A stretch of 42,384 nt of DNA from a virus. The notes beneath the pieces were generated by a model, which searched no databases, was not told where the DNA came from, and worked only from the letters and a program-made list of their open reading frames with translations. A program made the translations under genes and the position numbers. Where the stretch lies: the IMG/VR virus record IMGVR_UViG_3300044630_002302, positions 1 to 42,384 of that record; one strand, 5' to 3'. Positions within the stretch are counted from its first letter, which is position 1, and the number at the start of each line of letters is the position of its first letter. Below are positions 29,996-42,384 of the stretch, in pieces.

Positions 29996-30003
29996 GTTAA
30001 TTT

Positions 30004-30183
30004 TTAAACAGTTGTTACAGTTGTTCTTTCTTGGACCAACGCAATTCTATTAAGAATCTTACGTTTGTCTTTTTTCTTAGAAGTTTTTTCTAACATTGTG
30101 TTTAATTGATTTAAATTTAATGGACCTAGTCTAGGTTTACCTGTACGGGTCTGCATTGGGTTTGCTGTTTTCTTTGATGCCAT
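30004..30183 (-). CDS. Small basic protein (59 residues)
   Basis: The frame runs from the ATG at 30183-30181, preceded by a clear Shine-Dalgarno AAGGAG, to a TAA at 30006-30004. The product starts MASKKTANPMQTRTGKP and is basic (Lys/Arg about a quarter of all residues), with LNQLNTMLEK and SKKKDKRKILNRI forming helices. I recognise no family. The strong ribosome-binding site and tight packing (9 bases to the next gene upstream) argue that it is real; nucleic-acid binding would fit the charge. Confidence 0.65.
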   Translation of the reverse strand: MASKKTANPMQTRTGKPRLGPLNLNQLNTMLEKTSKKKDKRKILNRIALVQERTTVTTV

Positions 30184-30192
30184 AATAACTCC

Positions 30193-30495: not shown

Positions 30496-30498
30496 GGG

Positions 30499-30663
30499 TT
30501 ACTCCTTATTATTTTCTTTAACACGTGGTCCGCGGAAAGGTTGAGATGAAGCTAACTCTGCTTGTATAAACATCTTTTTGACAAGATTGCGGTTTTCTTT
30601 AGGGGTGTTAGCGATCATCTGTTTTGCTGATTTACTTAAATTGAAGTTTGCGTTTGGTTTCAT
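30499..30663 (-). CDS. Small helical protein (54 residues)
   Basis: ATG at 30663-30661, stop at 30501-30499, 3 bases before the CDGSH gene, whose Shine-Dalgarno (AAGGAG) lies in its last codons. Product begins MKPNANFNLSKSAKQMIAN, is basic and mainly helical, ends PRVKENNKE. Unrecognised, but packing suggests a real gene. Confidence 0.6.
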   Translation of the reverse strand: MKPNANFNLSKSAKQMIANTPKENRNLVKKMFIQAELASSQPFRGPRVKENNKE

Positions 30664-30686
30664 GATACAATAATTATCCTTTTATA

Positions 30687-30959
30687 TTAAGCGGTGCGCT
30701 GAATTAGATGCCAACCAAACTGTGTTTGAACTGGCTCACTTAGACTACCAACTTCTAAACCAAAAGCAGCATCTTCAAACGGTTTGACCATTTGGCCACG
30801 ACCAAACGGTCCTAGGTTACCACCATTACTGCCACTAGGACATTTGCTGTGTGTCTGTGCGAGGGAGGCAAAATTTTCACCACTTGCAATCTTTGCTTTT
30901 AATGTATTAGCTGTGTTTAAATCTTCTACTAAAATATGACTTGCTGTTACCTGTGACAT
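30687..30959 (-). CDS. ppiC: Parvulin-type peptidyl-prolyl isomerase
   Basis: 90 residues, the length of free-standing parvulin (E. coli PpiC is 93). ASHILVED (6-13), the KCPSGSNGGNLGPFGRGQMV block and the final TQFGWHLIQ are the signature of the rotamase domain, with both motif histidines in ASHILV and GWHLI. It catalyses cis/trans isomerisation of Xaa-Pro bonds and has no signal peptide, so it would work in the cytoplasm on nascent phage proteins. A phage-encoded parvulin is uncommon. It lies between tRNA-Glu and small genes in the tRNA region. Confidence 0.93.
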   Translation of the reverse strand: MSQVTASHILVEDLNTANTLKAKIASGENFASLAQTHSKCPSGSNGGNLGPFGRGQMVKPFEDAAFGLEVGSLSEPVQTQFGWHLIQRTA

Positions 30960-30977
30960 CTGCTTCTCCTATTAAAT

Positions 30978-31053
30978 TGGTACTCCCAACGAGATTCGAA
31001 CTCGTGTTACCTGCGTGAAAGGCGGGTGTCCTCGGCCTCTAGACGATGGGAGC
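30978..31053 (-). tRNA. tRNA-Glu(UUC)
   Basis: Acceptor GCTCCCA with TGGGAGT (G-T at the first pair), D-arm TCGTCTAGAGGCCGAGGACA, anticodon loop CTTTCAC (anticodon TTC), T-loop TTCGAAT, encoded CCA. Confidence 0.92.
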
Positions 31054-31063
31054 ATTGTTTATA

Positions 31064-31768
31064 TTATACATTCAAAAGATCTTTCTGTATAATTTTTTCT
31101 TTGAAATTGGTACTAAAATCCAATGGTTCATTATCCAAAGTAAACCAATTATATAACTTGTCTGCTAATATCTGATGATTGTCTTTGGATAAATGATTAA
31201 TCCTATAATCACCGTATCCTTCTTTCTGAGAAACTTTGCTTAAAATTTCAAACTGTTCTTGGTAACTATCGCCTGGGAATTCTTTCACAGACACTTCTAA
31301 TAACGTACCCTTCTGCCCCGGAATCTCATCAAATGCGCTGAATACTCTACTACGAGCACGACTGGCTGCTATTAAAGAAAAACCAATACTACGATCTATA
31401 GCATAATCACGTTTAGCATTATCTAGATATTTTAGATATTGTTCAACAGCATTTTTCTGTTCTTTGCTGATCACATTAAAAAACAATAACATATTTTGCC
31501 AATTAGAAAGATCTGGCCTATCTTCAAAAAACCATATTCTCGAACTTTCTGTTAACTGTGATAAAACAAAATCTTCTGGTTGGTGATCGTGAATATCGTT
31601 CCAAAATAATTCGGCGATTCGTGTATTAGCGATACCACTCTCACCTCGATTCATCACCCGCTCGACACCTAATTTTTCTGCGAGTATCTTATACCAAGGA
31701 TCATGCGGTATAGTTTTATTTTTTAATTCTGTAAAACTATCACCATATAACCAAAGTGTTTTCTTCAT
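31064..31768 (-). CDS. SGNH/GDSL-type hydrolase-like protein
   Basis: The frame opens at 31876, but that part overlaps tRNA-Met, so the ATG at 31768-31766 (MKKTLWLYGDSFTELKNK) is the start; this gives 234 residues. LYGDSF (7-12) is block I with the catalytic serine; RGESGIANTRI (about 41-51) fits block II; and SKDNHQILADK near the C-terminus carries the Asp-His pair of block V. Family members are esterases, lipases or deacetylases with an SGNH triad. There is no signal peptide. Candidate roles are removal of acyl groups from host glycan or lipid; substrate unknown. Located between tRNA-Glu and the tRNA-Met gene. Confidence 0.7.
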   Translation of the reverse strand: MKKTLWLYGDSFTELKNKTIPHDPWYKILAEKLGVERVMNRGESGIANTRIAELFWNDIHDHQPEDFVLSQLTESSRIWFFEDRPDLSNWQNMLLFFNVISKEQKNAVEQYLKYLDNAKRDYAIDRSIGFSLIAASRARSRVFSAFDEIPGQKGTLLEVSVKEFPGDSYQEQFEILSKVSQKEGYGDYRINHLSKDNHQILADKLYNWFTLDNEPLDFSTNFKEKIIQKDLLNV

Positions 31769-31780
31769 ACTATCCTTAAT

Positions 31781-31855
31781 TGGTTGCGGGGGACGGATTC
31801 GAACCGCCGATCTACAGCTTATGAGACTGTCGAGTTGCCACTTCTCCACCCCGCG
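31781..31855 (-). tRNA. Initiator-like tRNA-Met(CAU)
   Basis: Anticodon CAT in loop CTCATAA. The first acceptor pair is C1:A72 (5' CGCGGGG, 3' CCCCGCA), the mismatch used by bacterial initiator tRNAs to avoid elongation, and the D-stem has A11:T24. The three consecutive G:C pairs in the anticodon stem are absent: it reads ACAGT/GCTGT. Encoded CCA. Confidence 0.85.
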
Positions 31856-31864
31856 ATAAATCTT

Positions 31865-31941
31865 TGGTGGGCCCACCTGGACTCGAACCAGGGACCAAAG
31901 GATTATGAGTCCTCTGCTCTAACCAACTGAGCTATAGGCCC
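31865..31941 (-). tRNA. tRNA-Ile2(CAU), probably lysidine-modified
   Basis: Acceptor GGGCCTA with TGGGCCC, anticodon loop CTCATAA, variable region TTGGTC, T-loop TTCGAGT, encoded CCA. The GACTCATAATC...TTGGTC layout follows bacterial tRNA-Ile2 genes (E. coli ileX) rather than elongator Met. Host TilS would be needed to read AUA. Confidence 0.75.
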
Positions 31942-31951
31942 TACTTAAAAA

Positions 31952-32039
31952 TGGCGGAAACGAAGAGATTCGAACTCTTGAAACCTTTCGGTTTGCTTCG
32001 TTAGCAGTGAAGTGCCTTCGACCACTCGGCCACGTTTCC
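31952..32039 (-). tRNA. tRNA-Ser(GCU)
   Basis: Class II tRNA with a long variable arm (AAACCGAAAGGTTT). Acceptor GGAAACG with CGTTTCC, anticodon loop CTGCTAA (anticodon GCT), T-loop TTCGAAT, discriminator G and encoded CCA. Confidence 0.93.
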
Positions 32040-32047
32040 AATTCTTG

Positions 32048-32124
32048 TGGCCTGCCCTAGTGGATTCGAACCACTGACCTACAGCTTAGAAGACTGTTGC
32101 TCTATCCGGCTGAGCTAAGGGCAG
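32048..32124 (-). tRNA. tRNA-Arg(UCU)
   Basis: Acceptor CTGCCCT with AGGGCAG, anticodon loop CTTCTAA (anticodon TCT, reads AGA), anticodon stem ACAGT/GCTGT, discriminator G, encoded CCA. First tRNA after the promoter at 32138-32166. Confidence 0.92.
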
Positions 32125-32137
32125 GTACTATATAACT

Positions 32138-32166
32138 ATTATACAGTAATTAACGAGGATTGTCAA
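32138..32166 (-). promoter_or_regulatory. Perfect-consensus sigma70-type promoter of the tRNA operon
   Basis: TTGACA (32166-32161), 17-base spacer, TATAAT (32143-32138) on the minus strand, 14 bases before tRNA-Arg. Both hexamers match the consensus exactly, so strong early transcription by host polymerase is expected. Confidence 0.85.
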
Positions 32167-32748
32167 TTACATATTACCGTTCTGAAATCCTATATTGCCA
32201 CCTTCTGCTTCGATACGCTTGATAACGTCTTCGAACAAGATAGGACGAAAGTCTGTTTGCTCTACACATACACAATGATATCTAGGGTCAATTGGTTTTT
32301 TACCAGTTTCAAAATCTATACCAGAATCCATTAACACACGACCGGTGTGTAGATGTCCGTGTATATTTGTACCAAATCGTCCTAAACTTGCTGGATGTAT
32401 AGGTATATGACTTAATATCATTCCGTTCATAACGTGATAGGCACGCAGTTCACGGAAGTGTTCACGATATTCATCGTCTCTAAAGATGTCATGGTTACCA
32501 CGAATTAAAACTTTGTCGCCGTTTAATCTCGACATGATTTTTAACGCTTTACGATTAATAACAACGTCACCTAAATGGTAAACTTTATCGTTAGGTCCAA
32601 CTGTTTCGTTCCATGCCTTTACCATAAACTCATCCATTTCATCTGGATCAGTCCAAGGGCGAATTTTAACTCCGGTATCTTCGTGCGTGAAACGACAGAC
32701 ACCAGCGTGACCAAAGTGAGTATCACTTACTAAAAATACCGATGGCAT
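32167..32748 (-). CDS. Calcineurin-like metallophosphoesterase
   Basis: 193 residues. The dimetal motifs are in canonical order: D9-T-H11 with H14 (SDTHFGH), GDV around D61, GNHD (84-87), H114 (ILSHIPIHPA) and GHLH (131-134). The length and motif form are those of small phage phosphoesterases, which act on phosphomonoesters or cyclic phosphodiesters. No signal peptide. The tRNA promoter lies at the end of this gene, so its transcript probably continues into or is boosted there. Exact substrate not predictable. Confidence 0.9.
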   Translation of the reverse strand: MPSVFLVSDTHFGHAGVCRFTHEDTGVKIRPWTDPDEMDEFMVKAWNETVGPNDKVYHLGDVVINRKALKIMSRLNGDKVLIRGNHDIFRDDEYREHFRELRAYHVMNGMILSHIPIHPASLGRFGTNIHGHLHTGRVLMDSGIDFETGKKPIDPRYHCVCVEQTDFRPILFEDVIKRIEAEGGNIGFQNGNM

Positions 32749-32758
32749 TAGAGATTAA

Positions 32759-33001
32759 TTAAATTGCGTCTTGAGAAATTAGAAGATGTTTTCCAATTTC
32801 GAATAGGCCAACTGCGCCTGGGGTGTCTAATGTGCTGACATGGATTTGTGCAAGGCCGTCTTCGTCTAATGAACACGCAATGAATTCTTTGATCTGTCCA
32901 CTTTCGATTTGTTTTTTCATGTAATTGATGACTTCGAGCATTTCATCTCTACGATGTTCCGCGGCTTTGTCTTTTGGTTCAAAACTAATAATGTTATCCA
33001 T
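32759..33001 (-). CDS. Hypothetical protein (80 residues)
   Basis: 80 residues, begins MDNIISFEPKDKAAEHRRDE with a charged helix followed by beta-type segments (EFIACSLDEDG, QIHVSTLDTPG, EIGKHLLISQ). No family recognised. It lies 10 bases before the phosphoesterase gene and 9 bases after ClpP, in a compact operon, and has a good Shine-Dalgarno (AAGGAAAA) upstream. Cytoplasmic; function unknown. Confidence 0.6.
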   Translation of the reverse strand: MDNIISFEPKDKAAEHRRDEMLEVINYMKKQIESGQIKEFIACSLDEDGLAQIHVSTLDTPGAVGLFEIGKHLLISQDAI

Positions 33002-33010
33002 CGTTTTTCC

Positions 33011-33580
33011 TTATTTTAGCAATTGATCTGCTGCACCAAATTCTATTAATTCTTCTGCTGTCATCCAAACATCAGTCGGAGGCAATAATTTATTTTTTAT
33101 CATAGCTACACTTTTGCCTGTTCCTTCTCGTAGAATATCTATCATTCTATCTACACAGTTTTCATTTTCTTTCATCTGTGCTTTAACATCATGATATTTG
33201 TCGTCGTATCCGGTACTCATCTGATGGCACATAATACCTGTATTTTTAGCTATGTATCTCTGACCTTTAGCACCACTGATAAAAATCAAGAATCCTGCAC
33301 TCATAACAGATCCAATCCCAATAGTCTTGATTTTAAGTTTGCTGGCTTTCATGATATCGATTAATGCAAATGCAGAATAAAGGTCGCCGCCTATACTATT
33401 GATATACAATGTTAGGAACTTGTTTTCTCTAGGTTGAATAATGAGATTTTCGTAGGTGATCCATTTGATACAGTCGTTCACCGTTTCCTCAGTAATTTCT
33501 CCGGTGAGGAAATAGTGAGATTTTTCCAATAGGCTAATGCCTATACGATCGCTGGCGTTGAATTCGTTGTTTTTCTTCAA
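33011..33580 (-). CDS. clpP: ClpP-family serine protease
   Basis: 189 residues. Catalytic triad S94 (GSVMSAGFL), H119 (GIMCHQMST) and D170 (LPPTDVWMTAEE) at the spacing of ClpP; YINSIGGDLYSA (59-70) is the handle of the oligomer. The start is a TTG at 33580 with AAGGTG seven bases upstream; no in-frame ATG exists near. In phages such proteases act as prohead or regulatory proteases or combine with host Clp ATPases. The N-terminus lacks a long propeptide. A late-type motif (33604-33611) and a strong extended -10 lie upstream, so it may be transcribed at both stages. Confidence 0.92.
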   Translation of the reverse strand: MKKNNEFNASDRIGISLLEKSHYFLTGEITEETVNDCIKWITYENLIIQPRENKFLTLYINSIGGDLYSAFALIDIMKASKLKIKTIGIGSVMSAGFLIFISGAKGQRYIAKNTGIMCHQMSTGYDDKYHDVKAQMKENENCVDRMIDILREGTGKSVAMIKNKLLPPTDVWMTAEELIEFGAADQLLK

Positions 33581-33603
33581 AATAGCACCTTAGGTAGACC
33601 CTG

Positions 33604-33611
33604 TATTTATC
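33604..33611 (-). promoter_or_regulatory. T4-type late promoter motif
   Basis: GATAAATA on the minus strand, 23 bases before the TTG start of clpP. Confidence 0.4.
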
Positions 33612-33614
33612 ATG

Positions 33615-33625
33615 ATTATAGCATA
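33615..33625 (-). promoter_or_regulatory. Extended -10 promoter element
   Basis: TATGC-TATAAT on the minus strand (TGN-type extended -10 with perfect TATAAT), upstream of clpP. No convincing -35 at 16-18 bases. The ATGCTATAAT string recurs in the other early promoters of this window. Confidence 0.45.
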
Positions 33626-33632
33626 CTATAAT

Positions 33633-34001
33633 TTAGAAGACGCTGACAAGATATCCAATTATCCCCACATAAGTTAGATAATGGAGACCTTGATCTGCAC
33701 CTAACCAAACCCAAAACATGCGATCAACTGTGGTTAACCCTTTGTTCAACTGCTGTTTACCCCAATCAATGTGATAGTGTAATAATCCGTCTGCTGCTGC
33801 TACAGTTACAGCATCGTGTAAGTTTTGGGCAAAAAACACACAGATTAACAAAGTAAAGGCTGCATGTAGGCCTGCATGGTGCCATCCTCCCTCTGCGCCG
33901 TATGTGCCTTTTTCACGTATCATATAAGGAAACTGTAGTAAAAAATCACAGATAAAATGCTTGATACCAAATAGTGCCAATAGTAAGATTATGATGTCCA
34001 T
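33633..34001 (-). CDS. DUF3307-like membrane protein
   Basis: Start placed at the ATG 34001-33999 (MDIIILLLALFG), which overlaps the upstream stop as TAATG; this gives 122 residues, not the 134 of the longer frame. At least three hydrophobic segments (about 1-14, 45-60, 100-120) and conserved-looking polar residues in HFICDFLLQ and HHAGLHA, the pattern of DUF3307, a family of integral membrane proteins often found in phages and plasmids. No function is established. Confidence 0.65.
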   Translation of the reverse strand: MDIIILLLALFGIKHFICDFLLQFPYMIREKGTYGAEGGWHHAGLHAAFTLLICVFFAQNLHDAVTVAAADGLLHYHIDWGKQQLNKGLTTVDRMFWVWLGADQGLHYLTYVGIIGYLVSVF

Positions 34002-34366
34002 TATGATAATTCCTGTATAACTCGATAATTGTTCCATGCTGTTTCAACTGCTTGATTTTTGGGTGACTGGCTAGGATACATATCCATCCAATGATATGTA
34101 GAATCTGGAATCCAATGTCTGTCAATCCCTTGTAATCTAGGTTGTATTAATTTGTTAAGAGCTAATAAGTCTCTAAGTGTGTCAATATAAATTTCACGAT
34201 AATTGGCATCAAGTACGGTACTGTGTATCCAGTTATCTATTATATCTTCAAGATTTCGACCTTCACGAATGCTGGTAAGACTGACAACAAATGCCACGTC
34301 CTCTACTTTAACTCGTTCGTGAGCAATATCTTCTATACACTTAGATAATCTAAATCCTATTTTCAT
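34001..34366 (-). CDS. Hypothetical phage protein (121 residues)
   Basis: 121 residues, mainly helical, begins MKIGFRLSKCIEDIAHERVK and contains the acidic block NLEDIIDNWIHS. I recognise no family. ATG overlaps the stop of the putative lipoprotein (ATGA, 34363-34366) and its own stop overlaps the next start, so it is in a coupled operon of lysis or envelope genes. Function unknown. Confidence 0.65.
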   Translation of the reverse strand: MKIGFRLSKCIEDIAHERVKVEDVAFVVSLTSIREGRNLEDIIDNWIHSTVLDANYREIYIDTLRDLLALNKLIQPRLQGIDRHWIPDSTYHWMDMYPSQSPKNQAVETAWNNYRVIQELS

Positions 34367-34845
34367 TTTAACTTATTAACTCCTCGGTGCGGCACTTTGG
34401 CCTTGGATCTATGGGCTTTGGATACTCGTTTATTTTTTGATAACTTATGGCTAGTATTCCTCGTAGAGGTTCTTCTAATTTCTTCTGTTGCGGATCTTGT
34501 AGGTTTAGGAGTCTCAATGTATTGAAAACTAACTCCGCCACTTCTTGCCAATCTTCTTTTCTGTCCATACTCCCCTCCTACATGAAAATAAGTTTTCTTT
34601 ATTCTACAAACTTTCTTATGGTCAAATATATTAAACATTCTACAATCTTTACCAGTTACCTTGTCTAAGGCATGATCAGTTAGGGTTTTACCAGTGGTGC
34701 CATAGGCCACAGCATCACCAGCAGTTTTCGCAGTATCTACGGCTTCGGCCACGGCTACAGCAGTAGCCCCTGCACCCATGTTACCTGCTATCATAGTAAC
34801 GCATCCATTTAATAAAAACATCAGTGGTAATATCCAAAGATGCAA
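34363..34845 (-). CDS. Putative outer-membrane lipoprotein (candidate o-spanin)
   Basis: 160 residues. The lipobox LLNGC places a lipidated cysteine at about residue 15, so the mature protein should be anchored to the outer membrane. The start is a TTG at 34845, directly after the stop of the upstream TM/coiled-coil gene. The middle (TAVAVAEAVDTAKTAGDA, then ALDKVTGKDCRMF) fits small phage lipoproteins. The last 75 residues are very basic (Arg/Lys/Ser/Thr) and lie in the frame overlapping the small gene at 34368-34568, so the C-terminal part could be read-through of a shorter protein. Paired with the upstream gene it resembles an i-/o-spanin pair of the host-envelope lysis system. Confidence 0.55.
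   Translation of the reverse strand: MHLWILPLMFLLNGCVTMIAGNMGAGATAVAVAEAVDTAKTAGDAVAYGTTGKTLTDHALDKVTGKDCRMFNIFDHKKVCRIKKTYFHVGGEYGQKRRLARSGGVSFQYIETPKPTRSATEEIRRTSTRNTSHKLSKNKRVSKAHRSKAKVPHRGVNKLK
34368..34568 (-). CDS. Small protein overlapping the lipoprotein gene in another frame
   Basis: 66 residues, MDRKEDWQEVAELVFN..., with ordinary acidic/hydrophobic composition, unlike the basic tail of the overlapping frame. A very strong Shine-Dalgarno (GGAGGGGAG) sits immediately before the ATG at 34568, better than that of its neighbour. Its stop is 1 base before the ATG of the next gene. Both reading frames may be used; if only one, I favour this one for the 3' half. Function unknown. Confidence 0.55.
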   Translation of the reverse strand: MDRKEDWQEVAELVFNTLRLLNLQDPQQKKLEEPLRGILAISYQKINEYPKPIDPRPKCRTEELIS

Positions 34846-35139
34846 TTATTTTTTCTTGCCTTTGCGTAATTCTAATATTGCTAATGCCTGTTTACGCTGT
34901 AGTTCTTGTGTGACTTCAAGATCTTTTTCAAGATTTTTAATACGATTTTTTAAAACATTAATATCATTTTTCAATGATAGGTCGTATGATTTAACTTCTT
35001 CAAGTTGTTTTTCTAATTTGACATTAGTCTGTCTCGATGCTTCTAACTCTATATTGAATTGATGTACACTGTAGAGTAAAGATGCTAATGATAATGCTGC
35101 CACGATAAAAATAGACCAAAAAGTGTGTCTATTAGACAT
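34846..35139 (-). CDS. Membrane-anchored coiled-coil protein (candidate i-spanin)
   Basis: 97 residues: N-terminal transmembrane segment (FWSIFIVAALSLASLLYSV, about 7-25) followed by about 70 residues of charged heptad coiled coil (KLEKQLEEVKSYDLS, KNRIKNLEKDLE). An N-terminal anchor with a periplasmic coiled coil is the architecture of Rz-type inner-membrane spanins. The downstream gene encodes a lipoprotein with a TTG start coupled to this stop, matching the usual i-spanin/o-spanin order. Transcribed from a perfect sigma70-type promoter just upstream. The role is inferred from architecture only. Confidence 0.55.
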   Translation of the reverse strand: MSNRHTFWSIFIVAALSLASLLYSVHQFNIELEASRQTNVKLEKQLEEVKSYDLSLKNDINVLKNRIKNLEKDLEVTQELQRKQALAILELRKGKKK

Positions 35140-35183
35140 TAAGTAATCCTTTCTAAATATATGATGTTTTTGTACTATAAACT

Positions 35184-35212
35184 ATTATAGCATCATATAG
35201 ACTGTTTGTCAA
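35184..35212 (-). promoter_or_regulatory. Perfect-consensus sigma70-type promoter
   Basis: TTGACA (35212-35207), 17-base spacer ending ATGATGC, TATAAT (35189-35184) on the minus strand, about 45 bases before the gene at 35139. Confidence 0.85.
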
Positions 35213-35218
35213 TCTAAC

Positions 35219-35443
35219 TCATGCCCATCTTAGTGCAAACAATGTAGCATCTTTAGGATCTTCAAAACGGAAAGCAAATCCTTTTGTGTTCTGATATCCG
35301 TGCAGATGATATCTTCCACCGCATGTGTGATCTACCCAAGTTACGATCATATTGGGATTATAGTTGGGGCTTTCTAACATCTGTTCCCATTTAATAACGA
35401 CCTCAGGCCAATCTGGTGGCGGCCATCTATCTAGTTTATTCAT
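35219..35443 (-). CDS. Small protein, F-x-F-E-x-x-x-x-A-x-x-F-x-L-R-W family
   Basis: 74 residues, ends FAFRFEDPKDATLFALRW-A. The C-terminal string FxFEDxxDATLFxLRW recurs with variations in the small genes at 35445, 35809, 36907 and 37093, while the N-termini differ (here MNKLDRWPPPDWPEV...). No known domain; the conserved end looks like a strand-turn-helix that could be a docking or recognition element. It lies directly downstream of 35445-35696. Function unknown. Confidence 0.65.
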   Translation of the reverse strand: MNKLDRWPPPDWPEVVIKWEQMLESPNYNPNMIVTWVDHTCGGRYHLHGYQNTKGFAFRFEDPKDATLFALRWA

Positions 35444-35444
35444 T

Positions 35445-35696
35445 TTATTCTCCGCACCATTTTAACATAAACATCACCTTCTTTTGCTCATCATAAAAAT
35501 CAAGGTGAATAAAGGTTTGTTCGTCAGTCCAAAAGATATCAACTTCGTCTTTGACTTCTCTACGATGTCGGCGAACGGTGAATCCAAGTTTGCGTTTACA
35601 TACATCACGAATAGCAATACTCATACCGTGCGTTCTTAACAGTGAGGGCCAAATGCGTTGTTCCCAATCGTCTGCTTCTAATTCAACTGATTTCAT
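35445..35696 (-). CDS. Small protein of the same C-terminal family
   Basis: 83 residues, ends FIHLDFYDEQKKVMFMLKW-CGE, a divergent form of the shared signature (F-x-D-E-x-K-x-x-x-F-x-L-K-W). The N-terminal half (MKSVELEADDWEQR, SLLRTHGMSIAIRDVCKRKL) is helical with several charged residues. Weak ribosome-binding site. Function unknown. Confidence 0.6.
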   Translation of the reverse strand: MKSVELEADDWEQRIWPSLLRTHGMSIAIRDVCKRKLGFTVRRHRREVKDEVDIFWTDEQTFIHLDFYDEQKKVMFMLKWCGE

Positions 35697-35708
35697 CGAT
35701 TCGATTCA

Positions 35709-35837
35709 TTATCTAGACGATGCTAATAACATTAAGGTAAACAAGAACCACCAAGGATTCCATCCACACCATCCTACCAAGTAGGCAGTACCCGCTAGTA
35801 GACTTAAATTATATACTATTGCCATAAGTAACTTCAT
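35709..35837 (-). CDS. Tiny membrane protein (42 residues)
   Basis: ATG at 35837-35835, preceded by AAGGTGG, stop TAA at 35711-35709. The product (MKLLMAIVYNLSLLAG, then YLVGWCGWNPWWFLFTLML) is almost all hydrophobic, with a Trp-rich GWNPWWFL turn, so it is probably a small inner-membrane hairpin. It overlaps the 3' end of the gene at 35809-36072 by 29 bases. Good ribosome-binding site; unrecognised. Confidence 0.6.
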   Translation of the reverse strand: MKLLMAIVYNLSLLAGTAYLVGWCGWNPWWFLFTLMLLASSR

Positions 35838-36072
35838 TAGACCACCTTGTCATAAAAATTGTTGCTTTAGTTTCGTCTTCAAACATAAACCATTCACGCA
35901 ATGGATTCGAGTCGTCATCTTCTGGCACTGGGATCACTTTGGCACCTTGTCCTTCAAACCACTGTTTTAAAGTTGTATTATATAATTCATTATCTTTATG
36001 ATCTTTAATAACATTTTTATCAAAATACTTAATAGCATTAAACCAGTATGGATACATGGATATTTTTATCAT
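35809..36072 (-). CDS. Small protein of the same C-terminal family
   Basis: 87 residues, contains WFMFEDETKATIFMTRWSNE near the C-terminus, the clearest match after 35219 to the shared FxFEDxxxAxxFxxRW signature; N-terminal part is MIKISMYPYWFNAIKYFDK. Start overlaps the stop of the phosphoesterase gene (36069-36072). The family seems to have grown by tandem duplication here. Function unknown. Confidence 0.65.
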   Translation of the reverse strand: MIKISMYPYWFNAIKYFDKNVIKDHKDNELYNTTLKQWFEGQGAKVIPVPEDDDSNPLREWFMFEDETKATIFMTRWSNEVTYGNSI

Positions 36073-36875
36073 AAATCAATGTATCGTAATTTGAAACTAT
36101 CAGCCTGCGGTTCGTGACCACTATAGCCGCGAGGGTTACACACCACACGTGTAGCACCAATCATATAGTCGAATGGCTCATGTGTATGACCGTGTGTCCA
36201 CAACTTAATCTGTGGACGATAAGCGATGAAGTCATCTAGGTCGCTGGCAAACGCACCATTCATGATCTTGTCGTGGGCATACTTAGGATGCACGCTTTTG
36301 AAGCTAGGACAATGATGCCCAACTACGATAAACTTATGGGTTGGGCGATCGTAGGTAATGTGATTGATATAGTCCATGCTCTTCTTATGAAATATAACGG
36401 TATCTTCTGGAGTTAGTCGTGAAGATTTACCCCATTCATTTAAGGTCCTAGCACTGTTCTTAATGCTCTGGAAATCTGACATCATTGAACTTACGTGATA
36501 TAAAGTAAGACTATCTTCTTCATTCATGTTGGTCCATAAGGTTACACCAATGAAAGTATACTCTCCGATATCTACAGTTTCGTCATCTATGATGTGTAGA
36601 TTGTCGTAGGCCAATTCACGTTTTAAATGTGCAGTGGTATGTTGAACATCATATGAATAGTGTTCGTGATTACCTAAAACATAGACGACTTTAGGAAAAC
36701 GCTCACAGCATTCTTTAAAAAATTTTCTATAACGAGCATCGTGATGATGTTCTCTATTTAAATGTTTAGCCACACAGATATCGCCAGATAATACAAGTAC
36801 ATCTGCGTTTTCTGTATTGTGTAGTTCTAGGGTACCAAACTCTAGATGTACATCTGATGCGAGTGCGATTTTCAT
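36069..36875 (-). CDS. Calcineurin-like metallophosphoesterase
   Basis: 268 residues. Motifs in order: D8-H10 (ASDVHLEFG), G-D31-32 (LSGDICV), GNHEH (68-72), GHH (VVGHHCPSF) and HGHTHEPFDY near the C-terminus, all metal ligands of the calcineurin-like fold. It is longer than the phosphoesterase at 32167 and not obviously its duplicate. No signal peptide. It is directly behind a perfect sigma70-type promoter, so probably early. Candidate functions are removal of phosphate from nucleotides, tRNA ends or cyclic dinucleotides; none is shown. Confidence 0.9.
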   Translation of the reverse strand: MKIALASDVHLEFGTLELHNTENADVLVLSGDICVAKHLNREHHHDARYRKFFKECCERFPKVVYVLGNHEHYSYDVQHTTAHLKRELAYDNLHIIDDETVDIGEYTFIGVTLWTNMNEEDSLTLYHVSSMMSDFQSIKNSARTLNEWGKSSRLTPEDTVIFHKKSMDYINHITYDRPTHKFIVVGHHCPSFKSVHPKYAHDKIMNGAFASDLDDFIAYRPQIKLWTHGHTHEPFDYMIGATRVVCNPRGYSGHEPQADSFKLRYIDL

Positions 36876-36881
36876 AATACT

Positions 36882-36910
36882 ATTATAGCATCTTTTGGTT
36901 GATTTGTCAA
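36882..36910 (-). promoter_or_regulatory. Perfect-consensus sigma70-type promoter
   Basis: TTGACA (36910-36905), 17-base spacer ending GATGC, TATAAT (36887-36882) on the minus strand, ahead of the phosphoesterase gene at 36875. Its -35 lies within the last codons of the upstream gene. Confidence 0.85.
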
Positions 36911-37092
36911 CTGCCCCAACGGAGCAGAAATACTGTTATTTGTTTTTTATTTTTAAATTGGAATTGATCGTATGATGTTCTACGACCACAGTTATGTTCT
37001 TGACACCATTTTTGAATATCATCTAATTCTTCATCAGAGCCAAGCCATTCGTTAGCCACTAAACATAAGGGTTTCTTTTCAACCCAATGCAT
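36907..37092 (-). CDS. Small protein of the same C-terminal family
   Basis: 61 residues, ends YDQFQFKNKKQITVFLLRW-GS, the family signature with Lys/Asn in place of the acidic pair. N-terminal half MHWVEKKPLCLVANEW with an acidic helix (GSDEELDDIQKW). Its 3' end holds the -35 of the promoter for the next gene. Function unknown. Confidence 0.6.
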   Translation of the reverse strand: MHWVEKKPLCLVANEWLGSDEELDDIQKWCQEHNCGRRTSYDQFQFKNKKQITVFLLRWGS

Positions 37093-37410
37093 CTACGACC
37101 ACTTAAGAACGAACAATGTAGCATCAGATTCGTTTTCAAAATACCAAATACGATACCCGTCTATGTTTAGATCACGAAACTTGTTTTGGCAGTTTTCTAA
37201 ACACCAAGTAAGTTTTTCTGGAAAGTCGTCATCTTGTAATTTAACAGGATGATAGTTTTCTAATAGCTTCATTAATCGATCATCTTGAGCGAGATCGTGT
37301 TCTGCTTTTTGTGCTTTAGATATCCAAGAAGGTCCTCCGCCTCCAGCACCACCTAAGGTGATTGGGTAACTACTAGAACCAGCACCACCTGAAGAAATAT
37401 AAGATGACAT
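37093..37410 (-). CDS. Gly/Ser-rich small protein of the same C-terminal family
   Basis: 105 residues. N-terminal 27 residues are Gly/Ser-rich and flexible (SSYISSGGAGSSSYPITLGG), then helices, then the signature FENESDATLFVLKW-S at the very end. It is the longest family member, with an added disordered head. Stop is adjacent to the next start (37092/37093). Function unknown. Confidence 0.63.
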   Translation of the reverse strand: MSSYISSGGAGSSSYPITLGGAGGGGPSWISKAQKAEHDLAQDDRLMKLLENYHPVKLQDDDFPEKLTWCLENCQNKFRDLNIDGYRIWYFENESDATLFVLKWS

Positions 37411-37682
37411 TATTTGTTAGTCCTTAACAACCACTCTGTAAGAGCAGCACCTTGTAGTTTTGCGTATATGACAAATTTATATCCGTATTCGTGTTCGTCT
37501 GGTTGGTGATGATAATATGGAGTGTCTATACTGTTATTAATAATCCATTGTCCTTCTTCACTTTCCTGCCATTTTAATAAAGGATCAGCAGCATAAATTT
37601 CTGGATCTTCAACATCACCTATGATAAATTCGTGAACTAGTATAGTTCTTATTGGTTCACTATCCTGGAACTTTCTGCTCAT
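37410..37682 (-). CDS. Small protein, distant C-terminal family member
   Basis: 90 residues, ends YKFVIYAKLQGAALTEWLLRTNK, a weaker form of the family signature (F-x-I-Y-x-x-x-x-x-A-x-x-x-W-L-L-R). Acidic N-terminal half. The start lies within the end of the upstream RHH-like gene (overlap 23 bases) and the stop overlaps the next start by 1 base. Function unknown. Confidence 0.55.
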   Translation of the reverse strand: MSRKFQDSEPIRTILVHEFIIGDVEDPEIYAADPLLKWQESEEGQWIINNSIDTPYYHHQPDEHEYGYKFVIYAKLQGAALTEWLLRTNK

Positions 37683-38169
37683 CTAAAACTCTAGTTAACA
37701 CGCTTTCAACATATTTGTTTAGTGTCATATCATGTTCGTGAGCAACTTTCATCAACAGATATAATTCTTTTTTCTTAAGATCTAACGGTACTTGTATCCT
37801 TGTGTCATATTTCTTATCACGAGCAATAGCACGGGCTTTTTCAAGAATGTCGTCTTCAACTTCAATGTCTGTGTATTCTTCTTTATCCCAAGCATTCTTA
37901 AAATCTACACTACGCTTCTTACATTCTTTCTTGTAGTCAGCAATGTAGTCAGGATTGATCCAACGATAAATGTTATTCTTCTTGTAGTCGATAGCAGTCA
38001 TTTCAAACACAGTCTGAGTCTGCTTGTTAAACACAACCCCAATGTCATATTTGTTAAGCACACTGCTGTCTAGCATATATGCTTCGGGGCCATAACAGTT
38101 CCATTGATAATCAGCGCCTTCAGTAATCTTATGATCGATTGCTTCTAGATAATCTTTTAAGGTAATCAT
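37660..38169 (-). CDS. Phage protein with C-terminal ribbon-helix-helix-like domain
   Basis: 169 residues. The last 50 residues (TRIQVPLDLKKKELYLLMKV, then HDMTLNKYVESVLTR) fit a ribbon-helix-helix DNA-binding motif: strand, helix A, then helix B with the LNKYV...VL pattern of Arc/MetJ-type proteins. The N-terminal 110 residues form a separate, probably globular domain (YGPEAYMLDSSVLNKYDIGV) with no recognised fold. It may be a transcriptional regulator of the early minus-strand operon. Translation is coupled to the upstream small gene (stop/start overlap at 38169). Confidence 0.6.
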   Translation of the reverse strand: MITLKDYLEAIDHKITEGADYQWNCYGPEAYMLDSSVLNKYDIGVVFNKQTQTVFEMTAIDYKKNNIYRWINPDYIADYKKECKKRSVDFKNAWDKEEYTDIEVEDDILEKARAIARDKKYDTRIQVPLDLKKKELYLLMKVAHEHDMTLNKYVESVLTRVLDEQKVPG

Positions 38170-38330
38170 TATCTACCCCTTCCGGCTGATTTCTTTGCTG
38201 GTTTGTGTGATGCAACTTGATCTTTAACAGGTCCAGAGTCTGTGTCTGCTTTGCTACCTTTCTTGCCTTGACCTTGCTGTTGTTTCTTTTTTTCTAATGC
38301 TGCTTTAAGCATATCGCTATACGCTGACAT
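38169..38330 (-). CDS. Small basic, disordered protein (53 residues)
   Basis: Start placed at the ATG 38330-38328 (MSAYSDMLKAALEKKKQQQ) with AGGAG upstream, not at 38384; this gives 53 residues, Lys/Gln/Gly-rich and probably disordered (QGKKGSKADTDSGP, KPAKKSAGRGR). Ribosomal or nucleic-acid-associated roles would fit composition; unrecognised. Confidence 0.6.
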   Translation of the reverse strand: MSAYSDMLKAALEKKKQQQGQGKKGSKADTDSGPVKDQVASHKPAKKSAGRGR

Positions 38331-38338
38331 ATGATCTC

Positions 38339-38506
38339 CTAATGTACTTTGTTGGGTAATATTACTTCTGCAGAAATTTTCCAATCGTTAACTTTGGTAC
38401 TTTTAACTAAATCCATACCGTTTGTTGCTGCTTTGGTTAATAACTCTATTAATAACATATTATATAAGTCATCCGATACTTCATCAATGTTTAATTCGAT
38501 TTTCAT
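38339..38506 (-). CDS. Small acidic protein (55 residues)
   Basis: ATG 38506-38504 to TAG 38341-38339. Product MKIELNIDEVSDDLYNMLLI... ends EVILPNKVH, with alternating strand and helix. The stop contributes to the AGGAG of the next gene; the start lies 1 base after the stop of the 275-residue gene. Packing and composition support a real gene. Unrecognised. Confidence 0.6.
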   Translation of the reverse strand: MKIELNIDEVSDDLYNMLLIELLTKAATNGMDLVKSTKVNDWKISAEVILPNKVH

Positions 38507-38507
38507 A

Positions 38508-39335
38508 TTAGGTCCAAAGACTTTGTCTAATTTTGATAAGACGTATCATCATTGCTTCATCTTCTTTAGCGTAATCTGCTTCAATCTTTTGTAGTAGCTT
38601 GTGTGATTTGTCACTCATCTTTTTAAGTTCAGGTGTCCTGTCGTTGCCGCTCCATCCTAACTTTCCACCACGTTCTTTACGGCTCGCTTCGCAGTAAGCT
38701 GACCAACCACTTACTTCATATGGATCCGGACGATTTCGATAGGTAACCGTCCACCAAGTGTACAGCTCAATAATTTCTTTAGCACTAGTGGCTTGATGAG
38801 TTGGTTCTGAAGCAACATCTTCTTCAATACAATCTCGATTAGTAAGAGTAGTTGCCCACTTTAAGTATTCCATACCTGCTTCAGGACTGCGCCAAGTTCT
38901 CCAACGTAGCCAACCACTGCGCCACCATGGAGTTTTAAATTCAGTCTTAGCTTCGTCACTCCACATGCAGTGATGCCACGCTTGCTCTATTTCCACAAAG
39001 TCTACGAGCTCATTGAACATGCAAGGAAGAAAACGATTGCCCACATCTGACCAAGCACCAGGCTTGATATCTCTAGGATGAGCAGTAAGAGCATGAGAAT
39101 GACTAACCCAGCGGTTGTTAATATAGTATCTGATGTCATTTAGTCGATCTGGTATATAATAGACAATTGTTTGAAGATAGTCTAATCCTTCTTCTGTGAT
39201 CCACCAACGCACAGGATGTGCAGTTTTTGCAGTTGCTTCCCAAGCATCCCACTCTTCACAGGTGCCACACTTAGGCTTAGGCGTACCACGAAGCCAATCT
39301 GCAAATTTTCCAATCGACCAATAATTGTTGCGCAT
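38508..39335 (-). CDS. Conserved Trp-rich phage protein (275 residues)
   Basis: 275 residues with unusually many Trp (WSIGKFADWLRGTPKPKCGT, then HPVRWWITEEGLDYLQT, WLRWRTWRSPEAGMEYLKWA). I recognise the general sequence as a protein found across diverse tailed phages with the opening FADWLRGTPKP, but no function is established. No catalytic motif is evident. First gene of the large minus-strand block, behind a near-perfect sigma70-type promoter. Probably early. Confidence 0.75.
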   Translation of the reverse strand: MRNNYWSIGKFADWLRGTPKPKCGTCEEWDAWEATAKTAHPVRWWITEEGLDYLQTIVYYIPDRLNDIRYYINNRWVSHSHALTAHPRDIKPGAWSDVGNRFLPCMFNELVDFVEIEQAWHHCMWSDEAKTEFKTPWWRSGWLRWRTWRSPEAGMEYLKWATTLTNRDCIEEDVASEPTHQATSAKEIIELYTWWTVTYRNRPDPYEVSGWSAYCEASRKERGGKLGWSGNDRTPELKKMSDKSHKLLQKIEADYAKEDEAMMIRLIKIRQSLWT

Positions 39336-39358
39336 TTTTATTCCTTTAATATACGTGT

Positions 39359-39387
39359 ATTATAGCATTAAAATTAGATGGAGTCAA
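39359..39387 (-). promoter_or_regulatory. Sigma70-type promoter
   Basis: TTGACT (39387-39382), 17-base spacer ending AATGC, TATAAT (39364-39359) on the minus strand, ahead of the gene at 39335. One mismatch to consensus. Confidence 0.8.
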
Positions 39388-39390
39388 GAG

Positions 39391-39397
39391 TTAAATA
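39391..39397 (+). promoter_or_regulatory. T4-type late promoter motif
   Basis: TTAAATA, 25 bases before the ATG at 39423, which has its own Shine-Dalgarno (AAAGGAG). Divergent from the early promoter at 39359-39387. Confidence 0.45.
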
Positions 39398-39422
39398 CAA
39401 ATATAACTTAAAGGAGCAAGAA

Positions 39423-39704
39423 ATGGGCGAAATTTTTAAACTAATTGGCGATCTAGGATTTCCAATAGCTATGGCATTAGCAGGTGGGTATTTTGTTTAT
39501 CTAACTATCAAACTATTACTTGGTGGGGTTTTGAACAGTATCAAAGGAATGGCTGGTATCATCACATCCTTGGATAATCGTGTAAAAACAATGAATCACG
39601 ATGTTGTCCGTATTGATACAATCGTAAGCAACGCCTTAGGATTAAAACCGGATGTTGATCGTATTGCTCGTGCAGACGGCAAGAACGATGCACGACGCGA
39701 CTAA
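39423..39704 (+). CDS. Small membrane protein, holin-like architecture
   Basis: Start chosen at the ATG 39423 with AAAGGAG upstream (the frame opens at 39378); 93 residues. A single hydrophobic segment (GFPIAMALAGGYFVYLTIKL, about 12-31) is followed by a cytoplasmic-looking amphipathic part (TSLDNRVKTMNHDVVRID) and a basic, charged end (DGKNDARRD). One-TM proteins of this size with a charged tail are found among phage holins, but no test of that is possible from sequence. First gene of the plus-strand late operon. Confidence 0.65.
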   Translation: MGEIFKLIGDLGFPIAMALAGGYFVYLTIKLLLGGVLNSIKGMAGIITSLDNRVKTMNHDVVRIDTIVSNALGLKPDVDRIARADGKNDARRD

Positions 39705-39787
39705 TCGACATGTTCAAGGTACTAGCTATCGGACCGGTAATTAGTAGGATTAATATTTTAAAGTTGTAGTACAAATAGGAGCGAATT

Positions 39788-40576
39788 ATGGCAATAAACA
39801 TGAAACCATTTCCGGAGCAGGCAGCATTCTTTGCGAAATGTAGTGAACTAGCATATCTTGACAGTAAACAAGGTATTCCAAAGTTTAAAGAATTAGGGTT
39901 TGATGCTAATTTTATTGATGTAGATGGTAGTCAGGCATATTTTTTAAAAAATAATGACGACTTGGTTTTTGTTTGTCGGGGTACTGAACCTACAGAATTT
40001 AAAGATATAGCTGCTGACCTAAAAGCATTCCCAGTTCCTAGTTCAACAGGCATTGGTAAGGTACATCGAGGATTTAAAGAATCAGCAGATGATGTTTGGG
40101 ACGAATTAAAAGAAAAAATAGATGATTACGGTAAGACTCGCACTATTTGGATTACTGGGCATAGTCTTGGTGCTGCTATGGCAACGCTGATATCTTATAG
40201 ATTACAACGTTCAGAAGAGTTACCTAATCCACAGGCGTTGTTTACATTTGGATCTCCAAAGGTAGGTAATAAAGAATATATTAAAGGTATTGAAGCAAGC
40301 GGTATATTACATTTCCGTTTTGTAAATAATGCCGATATTGTAACAAGAGTTCCACCGTGGCCTTACAAACACTTTGGTGGTATGTACTATATGAATCACT
40401 GGGGTAATATCAGAGCCGCTAGTGGATTACAATTAATACAAGATAGGTTGCGTGGATTTATTAAAGGATTACAGAAGGGTGAGATTAATTTTTTCAGCAA
40501 TCACAGCATACCTCGATATGTGGCTAACTTAGAACGTTGGGCGGCCGGAGAAGAAAGATCCCAAGATCAAATTTAA
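39788..40576 (+). CDS. Class 3 lipase-like alpha/beta hydrolase
   Basis: 262 residues. Nucleophile elbow WITGHSLGAAM with S126, then D183 (NNADIVTRVPP) and H239 (FFSNHSIPRY) in the order and spacing of class 3 lipases; oxyanion-type FVCRGTEP (about 61-68) precedes them. The catalytic triad is complete. No signal peptide, so it is cytoplasmic or released on lysis; it may degrade host membrane lipid. Good Shine-Dalgarno (GGAG). It heads a run of membrane-associated genes, which suggests an envelope role. Confidence 0.88.
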   Translation: MAINMKPFPEQAAFFAKCSELAYLDSKQGIPKFKELGFDANFIDVDGSQAYFLKNNDDLVFVCRGTEPTEFKDIAADLKAFPVPSSTGIGKVHRGFKESADDVWDELKEKIDDYGKTRTIWITGHSLGAAMATLISYRLQRSEELPNPQALFTFGSPKVGNKEYIKGIEASGILHFRFVNNADIVTRVPPWPYKHFGGMYYMNHWGNIRAASGLQLIQDRLRGFIKGLQKGEINFFSNHSIPRYVANLERWAAGEERSQDQI

Positions 40577-40588
40577 GGAGAAGGATAA

Positions 40589-41146
40589 ATGGCTTTAACA
40601 GACACAGTGATGAAGATGGTCACACGCCAACCCAAGGACGGTAAGGAACCAGACCAATCAGTTACAGAAAAAATGATCAAAAGCAAAGCTGGATTGGTGA
40701 TCAATATCTTTGCGGCACTACTAGCTTTTAACATGTGGTTGCAAGGTAGTCTACACAGCAAGGTAATGAACAACACCATACAGGCCAATGACCTTTGGGC
40801 GTTCTATCAAGCCAAGAGTATTAAACAAACACAGTATGAGTTGGCTGCACAACAAACTACAGATTCTGCTAAGGCTAAGAAGTTTAGTGAAAAAGCCGCA
40901 AGTTACGAACTAGGTGAAGAAGGTAAGCCAGCACTATACAAAAAAGCCAAAGCATTAGAAGCTGACCGCGATCATTACAAACAACAACTACCATGGGTAG
41001 GTTATGCGAGTACAGCATATCAACTCAGTATCGTATTACTATCAGCAAGTATCTTAAGTGTTAGCATGGCTTTGTTCTGGGGTAGTTTTATCCTAGCTGG
41101 TGCTGGAATAGTGCTGATGCTACAAGGTTTATTATTATTTTTATAG
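40589..41146 (+). CDS. DUF4337-like membrane protein
   Basis: 185 residues. Transmembrane segments at about 34-51 and two near 145-185, with a soluble part between that has QANDLWAFYQAKSIKQTQ, the block typical of DUF4337. Its family has no known function. Shine-Dalgarno AAGGAGAAGG precedes the ATG. It follows the lipase gene by 12 bases and probably works in the membrane with its neighbours. Confidence 0.72.
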   Translation: MALTDTVMKMVTRQPKDGKEPDQSVTEKMIKSKAGLVINIFAALLAFNMWLQGSLHSKVMNNTIQANDLWAFYQAKSIKQTQYELAAQQTTDSAKAKKFSEKAASYELGEEGKPALYKKAKALEADRDHYKQQLPWVGYASTAYQLSIVLLSASILSVSMALFWGSFILAGAGIVLMLQGLLLFL

Positions 41147-41158
41147 AGGATTGATAAG

Positions 41159-42025
41159 ATGGGATGGAATCCGTTTAAAAAGAGCAGTTGGAAAAAAGTA
41201 GGCAAGGATATTAACAAAGCTGTAGTACAACCGGTGGCTAAAGCTGTAACCAGCACTGCTAATCTTGTGGCAAAAGAAACTACCAAAGCCGTGAATGTTG
41301 CAGGTAAAACTATCGTTGACGAAACCGGTAAGATTACTAAAGAAGCAGAAAACCTTGCTAAAGACACAGTTGGTACTATACAAAAAGAAGTGGTCAGCGA
41401 AACAGTTAAAGCCTACGCTGACACTACTAAAGCTGCATTACAGACAGCTAAGGTTGCTGATGCTGCTATCAATGATATTGAGGCAGGTGCCAAACTTACA
41501 GGAAAGGTCCTAGAACAAGGTGTTCAGGAAATTGAACAAGCAGGTGAACTTGCTATTGAATGGATGGATGACAACTATTGTCAAATTGGTGTTAGTGTCG
41601 CATTAGGCACAGTATTTGCTGCAATTTTATATCGTCCAGAACCAAGCAGTCAAGCAACAACTACAGCCGCGACAGCACCATTGAGTGCTACTGCTATTGC
41701 TTACCTTGCTGCTAAAGAGACTGTTGGTGCTGTGGCATTGGGTACAGCATGTGATTTAACTGCTAAAGCATTCGTTGATTTAATCTGGGCGGCTCCAGAC
41801 ATACAAAAAGCCATTGGTAATAAGAACAAACAAATTTTAACAGACGCTATAGCGTTTACCCTAGCCAAGTCAATTGACAAAGCCGCAGGTGCTATGATTG
41901 TTCCACAGAGTTGTGCCGCTGTTGTTGCTGGTATTGTAACAACATTAGTAGCACAATTAGCCTGTGAACAAACATTACCAAAAGGTGCACGTGAGTGGGC
42001 CTCAACAGGAGCAAGTGGACTATAA
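41159..42025 (+). CDS. Ala-rich amphipathic protein with hydrophobic C-terminal half
   Basis: 288 residues. Residues 1-140 are a long series of amphipathic helix repeats rich in Ala, Lys, Thr, Val (VAKAVTSTANLVAKETTKAV, then TIVDETGKITKEAENLAKD), resembling apolipoprotein- or LEA-like membrane-surface helices. The second half contains hydrophobic segments (IGVSVALGTVFAAILY, then SCAAVVAGIVTTLVAQLA). Such a layout could bind or insert in membranes; a pore or toxin role is possible but not shown. Shine-Dalgarno GAGGA. I recognise no family. Confidence 0.65.
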   Translation: MGWNPFKKSSWKKVGKDINKAVVQPVAKAVTSTANLVAKETTKAVNVAGKTIVDETGKITKEAENLAKDTVGTIQKEVVSETVKAYADTTKAALQTAKVADAAINDIEAGAKLTGKVLEQGVQEIEQAGELAIEWMDDNYCQIGVSVALGTVFAAILYRPEPSSQATTTAATAPLSATAIAYLAAKETVGAVALGTACDLTAKAFVDLIWAAPDIQKAIGNKNKQILTDAIAFTLAKSIDKAAGAMIVPQSCAAVVAGIVTTLVAQLACEQTLPKGAREWASTGASGL

Positions 42026-42062
42026 TGAAAATTGCTCTAAATTGGATCGTTTGGTTAGCATT

Positions 42063-42233
42063 ATGAACCGAGAATTAATCAAGGCATTAATAATAGCATT
42101 GTGGGGTACCTTGTTAATGTGGTTTATTGCTAATTATTTTGACAAAGGAATTACTGTTACAGCACCTGTTATTAATGTTACTCCAAAAATGAATGAACAT
42201 AACGAACAAAATAAGAGGGCCTTAAATGAATGA
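42063..42233 (+). CDS. Small single-TM protein (56 residues)
   Basis: The frame opens at 41964 inside the previous gene; the ATG at 42063 (MNRELIKALIIALWGTLL) is preferred. One transmembrane helix (residues 6-24) and a hydrophilic tail (PKMNEHNEQNKRALNE). A 13-codon ORF at 42024-42065 ends exactly at this ATG (ATGA), possibly a leader peptide. Function unknown. Confidence 0.55.
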   Translation: MNRELIKALIIALWGTLLMWFIANYFDKGITVTAPVINVTPKMNEHNEQNKRALNE

Positions 42234-42384
42234 TGAACAAGAAAATCGCTTGGTTGTAATGAAAGACAATCAAGTAAAGAATTTATTAGCAAGTCTACTT
42301 ATCGCCGCAGTAGGTTGTTTGGCCTTTTGGGCCTATGACGCACAGGTACGTGTTGATGAGTATAATGCCAAAGTAAACAGTCTG
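42226..42384 (+). CDS. Membrane protein, partial (C-terminus beyond window)
   Basis: ATG at 42226, inside the last codons of the preceding gene, reads 53 codons to the window edge: MNDEQENRLVVMKDNQVKNL followed by a transmembrane stretch (LLASLLIAAVGCLAFWAY, about 20-37) and a polar part. Looks like the next member of the small-membrane-protein operon. The cysteine is not in a lipobox context. Function unknown. Confidence 0.6.
   Translation, partial: MNDEQENRLVVMKDNQVKNLLASLLIAAVGCLAFWAYDAQVRVDEYNAKVNSL

Follow-up and report, generated by a model that had tools for sequence, protein, structure and literature searches.

Host-takeover clusters in the early regions of T4-like and jumbo phages consist of tiny, tightly packed, overlapping open reading frames (ORFs) of unknown function. 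A series of small minus-strand genes lies at 35.2-38.2 kb of IMG/VR virus record IMGVR_UViG_3300044630_002302 (42,384 bases, the whole of which was analysed and is called the window here). Six of these genes, p1 to p6, had been singled out in a preliminary description as tiny proteins with a common C-terminal signature. We found that the signature belongs to a large and widespread phage family which is hitherto undescribed in the literature searched; full-text searches returned no description of the family or of the system. Its members form arrays that resemble takeover clusters in being made of tiny, packed, overlapping genes, and one array, in record G018, lies among replication genes. Unlike takeover clusters, the arrays encode one recognisable terminal module, the ending of a gene often appears to be the ribosome-binding site of the next, and some of the variable N-terminal parts (heads) are capsid fragments. 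We consider it probable that these window genes are a small section of a phage system that is widespread and built of mini-gene cassettes in tandem.

Two described systems are closest in other respects. Translational coupling through short stop/start overlaps is known and is enriched among genes for complex subunits (PMC10666635). The arrays are like the termination-reinitiation at ATGA overlaps described there in combining a short overlap with a Shine-Dalgarno site in the upstream gene, and differ in using one conserved protein ending as the putative site at successive junctions. The second system is Gol/Lit exclusion. A 29-residue stretch of gp23 named Gol, said to be the best-conserved part of the protein, binds EF-Tu and turns on the Lit protease; binding is more stable with about 100 residues from the protein's first quarter (PMC3014915). 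The N-arm heads of the present family cover positions 91-128 of T4 gp23, which lie in the first quarter too, so that the likeness is one of sequence position.

A widespread family that forms arrays

IMG/VR was scanned at the DNA level for the pattern F-E-[ND]-x2-D-A-x2-F-x-L-[RK]-W, which was derived from the earlier finding and did not require a stop codon. The scan returned at least 119 stretches. All of the 128 matches listed for these stretches had an in-frame stop within 10 codons downstream, and 93 had a one-residue tail after the motif. With a threshold of E<1e-3, an independent profile, built from the C-termini of 105 IMG/VR relatives with none from the window, matched 367 of 9,914 ORFs; the 9,914 reversed ORFs gave no match, i.e. 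the matches are above chance. Copies numbered from 1 to 41 per record in 50 records of up to 436 kb; these had been picked for carrying the motif, so that 50 of 50 is no frequency.

Four records were read piecewise. They contained 30 (G018, 364 kb), 23 (G041, 192 kb), 26 (G012, 69 kb) and 6 members (G009, 51 kb), mostly in dense runs. The first array of G018 is flanked by genes for a helicase, a glucosyltransferase, an exonuclease, a primase and a replicative helicase, a position that suggests an early or replication region, and it is plausible on gene order that the array products are early.

The pattern occurred in only 7 stretches of bacterial and archaeal genomes (257 Gb), mostly from Alphaproteobacteria, and a stop followed within 6 codons downstream in six of the seven. 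One Microvirga genome gave six profile matches at E<=0.1, and 7 of the 31 genomes of this genus that were searched had a profile match at E<=0.001. Therefore the module exists in cells too. Two alphaproteobacterial metagenome-assembled genomes (L196 and L197) encode a module protein of 90 amino acids (aa) with the same neighbours in both, possibly a cellular relative of the phage family. Among named phages, tblastn searches with p1, p6 and one relative gave no match, and a search with another relative gave a single weak match (E 1) to Sinorhizobium phage Phosso. Agrobacterium phage Atu_ph07 had 6 profile matches at E<=1, the best at 2e-6.

The predicted module and its conserved ending

The conserved region comprises about 50-60 residues and is longer than a short tag. 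Alignment of 48 diverse members showed that they share an upstream Trp, the Phe of the strand and, at the end, F, L and W. An AlphaFold2 model of p1 (predicted local distance difference test, pLDDT, 82.6) consists of strand-helix-strand-strand-helix, and a model of a member with a gp23-related head (pLDDT 83.4) has the same order of elements, the head being one long helix. The motif corresponds to the last strand and helix in both. Judged by these models, the shared ending is predicted to form part of a small folded beta-alpha-beta-beta-alpha domain. The closest solved folds found by VIA-align were ferredoxin-like (ACT, DCoH, RRM), whose order of elements resembles that of the models; the best Z scores of 5.0-5.8 (3.9-5.3 for RRM rows) are in the range of common arrangements. 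However, the final strand of ferredoxin-like folds (beta-alpha-beta-beta-alpha-beta) is absent from both models, and the Pfam RRM profile was not matched by p1-p6. In a BFVD search 1 of 416 matches reached E<=0.001, and most top rows were proteins of uncultured phages. The module had no Pfam or PHROG match in 140 head-bearing members and p1-p6.

To characterise the end of the genes at the DNA level, we collected 492 unique members, defined by distinct last 60 residues. Before the first codon counts, 51 were dropped as having no locatable F-x-L-x-W or lying near the locus end. A one-residue tail was found in 337 of the 441 motif-bearing members; in 174 of these 337 the last bases were NNATGA, the ATG overlapping the stop codon, and this ATG opened an ORF of at least 40 codons in 164 cases. 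In the arrays the terminal L-R-W is written YTG-AGG-TGG-NNATGA. After removal of a further 15, 426 members were classified by junction, and 204 of them had an ATGA overlap with a downstream ORF.

The motif Arg was encoded by AGG at 123 of 164 ATGA overlaps with a downstream ORF (whatever the tail length, the ORF having 35 codons or more). The figure was 66 of 116 where another start lay nearby and 4 of 17 where there was none; AGG made up 164 of the 2,010 Arg codons in the rest of the same genes. The same was seen within single phages: AGG was used at 12/19, 8/11 and 11/12 motif Args in three phages and at 0/54, 0/45 and 0/2 of their internal Arg-Trp pairs (0/101 in total). GAGG occurred within 18 nucleotides (nt) before the start at 104 of the 204 family junctions; at ATGA overlaps outside the family the figure was 20 of 239. 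The median predicted for pairing to the 16S tail was -10.4 kcal/mol for 174 family junctions and -3.6 kcal/mol for 227 controls. The codon bias, the GAGG and the pairing together indicate that ribosomes very probably bind at the end of one gene to start the next, and that in most long arrays the conserved ending very probably doubles as a Shine-Dalgarno site. As far as sequence goes, the arrays combine the features of coupled cistrons, i.e. a stop/start overlap and an upstream ribosome site, and adjacent cassettes may be translationally coupled.

Because the last codons would serve as a ribosome-binding site, conservation of the terminus is in part explained without any partner. This bears on the earlier proposal of a tag that perhaps docks to a common partner, in which the ending would be exposed, for docking or localisation, and the heads would be cargo. 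The extreme C-terminal position in all 128 matches listed and the diversity of the heads agree with such a tag, but the similarity reaches 50-60 residues upstream, both models place the motif in a strand and a helix of the fold, and the AGG bias accounts for part of the terminal conservation at the DNA level. In view of the models and the length of the similarity, an exposed tag was rejected as the main explanation, and we consider the proposal unlikely; the docking signal was not borne out, the motif being predicted in a folded domain and its last codons often being the putative ribosome-binding site of the next gene.

Conversely, L-R-W could be conserved purely as a ribosome-binding site in DNA, with no protein role. 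This is very unlikely in spite of the strong AGG bias at junctions, given that the motif is also present in 27 members without a close downstream start and is found with other Arg or Lys codons, that conservation extends upstream to the F and D-A, and that single copies occur in chromosomes of Alphaproteobacteria.

Exchangeable heads, gp23 fragments and selection

The heads were examined in 140 of the 212 head-bearing members that remained after grouping. Pfam Gp23 (PF07068) was matched by 9 of the 140, with E down to 1e-12. Only 5 PHROG families were matched at E<=0.001, the commonest two being head proteins: PHROG major head protein in 9 of the 140, and phrog_2803, phrog_38228 and an endolysin family (phrog_181) in one each. 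In a larger set at least 14 of 306 heads were related to gp23, and reversed heads had zero matches. By direct comparison the gp23 heads fell on T4 gp23 at about 79-131 (core 91-128) and 254-309, with a short match at 441-456. hhalign gave 97% probability for the spine-headed group against gp23. These head segments are homologous to gp23 (PF07068, phrog_138). They differ from it in that gp23 is a full-length shell protein of about 400-520 aa, whereas the heads are 35-60 residues fused to an unrelated module, with intact gp23 as a separate gene. In G018 and G031 an intact gp23 gene is present alongside fragment genes; the fragments above the Pfam cut-off are in open frames of 120-165 aa and the intact gp23 frames have 391-422 aa. 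In L021 and in L011 the first and the second segment each head a gene of their own, the two genes being adjacent in L021, and one composite head joins two gp23 segments. Assembly artefacts were rejected as the source of the gp23 fusions, because related chimeras recur in different metagenomes (L011/L021, 72% identical, with a ratio of nonsynonymous to synonymous substitution rates, dN/dS, of 0.15).

Heads and bodies were found in exchanged combinations. Members with a P-D-A-W-S-R-W body carry a gp23 N-arm head, a gp23 A-P-Y-I-P head or neither, and the same G-R-Q-x-G-K-S head is joined to two different bodies, of which one resembles p4. The idea of a conserved C-terminal element on diverse heads thus held for the family as a whole, including swaps in both directions and heads that are gp23 fragments; its interpretation as a tag was not borne out. 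The GRQxGKS head may come from the Q-motif/Walker A region of the terminase large subunit (P-x-Q ... RQxGK[ST]) or from an endolysin-like stretch (phrog_181 in 1 of 140). BLAST of these heads against 10 TerL sequences gave a best E of 1.4e-5, which speaks for terminase, and the head profile gave E 0.52 against the single TerL in its database, which speaks against it. Among the terminase large subunits, that of L195 (G017) has a frame of 874 aa, compared with 520-563 in the other nine, and looks interrupted just after Walker A by a stretch that we take to be intein-like.

All 13 pairs tested had dN/dS of 0.02-0.25, i.e. purifying selection. In comparison with the sister phage L002, the window genes p1-p6 gave 0.02-0.23 (p1 0.23, p2 0.12, p3 0.09, p4 0.02, p5 0.12) and the phosphoesterase gene within the array 0.08; six other family pairs gave 0.10-0.25, with 0.12-0.25 for the gp23-headed ones among them. 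The genes are therefore maintained and are no debris, and diversifying selection over the whole length is not evident. Fast evolution, which had also been suggested earlier, is not supported for these 13 pairs. Gain or loss of cassettes was seen between the sister phages, where one part of the array has 975 bp in L002 and 123 bp in the window. At this place L002 has four additional ORFs, each 58 codons or longer, and the last of them is a spine-headed member ending next to p2.

Such an indel, together with heads made of gp23 pieces in varied combinations and a composite of two segments, would also be expected if recombination had merely collected gene fragments in the arrays, as in a graveyard or a nursery, and these were largely or wholly functionless. 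The open frames, the dN/dS of all 13 pairs (gp23-headed members included) and the recurrence of related chimeras across different metagenomes make this quite unlikely. It is also improbable that gp23-headed members take part in assembling the capsid of their own phage, as subunits with a minor or regulatory role: their heads do match the three conserved gp23 segments, but in G018 the arrays lie at 51-58 and 200-205 kb, a long way from gp23 at 283 kb, one of them is among replication genes, and most cassettes have no capsid part.

Our preferred explanation, which we regard as likely, is that the arrays are tandem cassettes with a common C-terminal module, an ending conserved for a double role, in the core of the protein and as the site where ribosomes bind for the next cassette, and exchangeable heads. 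Each cassette would encode a small protein on the common beta-alpha-beta-beta-alpha module, and the ending would be kept for two reasons, as the predicted core of the module and, in tight arrays, as the start signal of the following gene. Since each AGG-TGG cassette would supply this signal for whatever comes after it, cassettes could be gained, lost and re-headed. The module may act as a scaffold and the head as the target-specific part; the products may act early on proteins of the host or of rival phages, and capsid-derived heads may compete with the capsid protein for its partners. Most simply, the products would be small binding proteins, some of them possibly capsid decoys.

Several points weigh against this explanation. 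A PDB fold search with the module found nothing at E<=0.001, which is no proof of a new fold. The R/K motif codons of the window are AGA, AAA, AGG, CGT and AAG, so that the reading of the ending as a ribosome site rests on arrays elsewhere. The codon counts pool related genes, which are non-independent, and only 109 of the 204 overlapping downstream ORFs were recognised as members. As for the heads, 131 of the 140 had no Gp23 match and most lack a recognisable parent, and recognition of parents favours conserved ones such as gp23; without their strongest members the spine heads reached only 62% hhalign probability.

Capsid protein triggers CapRel, and STAND systems sense terminase or portal (PMC9712102). 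Since these proteins are sensed by host defences, early fragments of them could serve as decoys or else poison assembly in rival phages. A decoy of this kind would bind a host sensor of capsid protein and leave it untriggered; for the heads, position and homology are the features that fit. The arrays might then be an evolvable decoy library, in which self-priming cassettes capture pieces of conserved late proteins (gp23 segments 91-128, 254-309 and 441-456 of T4, possibly the terminase P-loop) and express them early as folded fusions that occupy Lit/EF-Tu-like, CapRel-like or Avs-like sensors, or poison the capsid or packaging of rivals, before the late proteins appear. We hold this extended idea to be unlikely. 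Tab, a prophage tail assembly blocker that stops the assembly of other phages (PMC10884400), is a functional precedent, by other means, for capsid fragments that would poison rivals; the analogy is one of function only.

The module marks a whole class of small genes of unknown function in large phages, and with it they can be enumerated, sorted and studied together. If one ending serves in the core of the protein and also as ribosome site for the following gene, arrays have a concrete means of acquiring and shedding members. Purifying selection on capsid-derived heads prompts the question whether phages produce pieces of those of their proteins that are sensed, in order to blind immunity or damage their rivals.

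Genes of the window and their surroundings

Membership of the six window genes was graded by two profiles. Among 9,914 ORFs the independent profile recovered p1 (E 3e-18), p5 (8e-12) and p4 (3.5e-5); when the search was limited to the six window proteins, p3 scored 1e-5, p2 0.0079 and p6 0.096. A wider profile, whose training set partly consisted of window proteins, was searched against all 244 window ORFs and gave 9e-4 for p2, 1.6e-3 for p3 and 9e-4 for the unrelated ORF 13649-14764. Because p2 and p3 do not outscore this ORF, they are regarded as borderline members. For p6 the wider profile gave an E of about 560 and hhalign a probability of 5.9%, which rule it out as a proven member. The earlier observation is thus partly confirmed. 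Of the signature claimed for all six genes, the part concerning p1, p4 and p5 is significant, that for p2 and p3 is borderline and that for p6 is unsupported, so the profile search of the C-termini, in which absence of any relation was to refute the claim, showed a relation for at least three of the six. Completely different N-termini had also been claimed; the shared part in fact spans 50-60 residues, including the helix with the upstream Trp, and only the parts preceding it differ and are exchangeable. The six proteins had zero Pfam matches at E<=10, thus neither RRM nor Gp23 (PF07068), and nothing significant among PHROGs (best E 0.051).

All six ORFs are present on the minus strand. p1 (35219..35443, 74 aa; motif 35225-35272) belongs to the W-P-P-P / G-R-Y-H-L-H-G subfamily of the module and has full-length relatives on other contigs that are 39-93% identical. 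It ends with CTA AGA TGG GCA TGA, a relic ATGA with no gene after it. The motif of p2 (35445..35696, 83 aa) is F-Y-D-E-Q-K-K-V-M-F-M-L-K-W at about 35457-35498. The start of p3 (35809..36072, 87 aa; motif 35842-35889) overlaps the stop of the phosphoesterase gene. AGG-TGG occurs in p3 only among the window members, as its R-W codons, and lies 4 nt before the ATG of a putative 42-codon minus-strand ORF (35709..35837), for which it is possibly a ribosome-binding site. p4 (36907..37092, 61 aa; motif 36916-36963) has an N-C-G-x-R body, a type found elsewhere beneath GRQxGKS heads. In p5 (37093..37410, 105 aa; motif 37099-37143) the module comprises residues 62-104, and residues 1-30 are unlike those of the sister-phage counterpart. 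An apparent likeness of these 30 residues to a phage virion N-terminus was rejected: tblastn of residues 1-37 against named phages gave no match. p6 (37410..37682, 90 aa) is a conserved small phage protein; it has its own well-conserved family (18-row alignment), found near arrays in many contigs, and some of its relatives end with L-K-W or L-R-W.

Within the array, a metallophosphoesterase gene that is not a family member (36069..36875, minus strand) matched phrog_1649 at 3e-53 and PF00149 at 1.5e-10. Upstream of the array lies a gene of 169 aa (37660..38169, minus strand), the N-terminal sequence of which is by eye similar to that of one beside an array in G018. In the stretch 30000-42384, no DNA match to named phages was found among the matches listed, except for one tRNA gene; the window has seven tRNA genes. 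Two genes adjoin an array in G041 (L152:2942-4156 and 4934-5476), presumably encoding a bacterial-type porin, without a PHROG match, and a peroxiredoxin-like protein. Near the array of the window, the ORF at 33011-33580 looks by eye like a ClpP-like serine protease. Positions 2969-22316 contain a cluster of ORFs with what appear by eye to be radical-SAM-like cysteine motifs, together with an aminotransferase-like gene, which is unusual in a phage.

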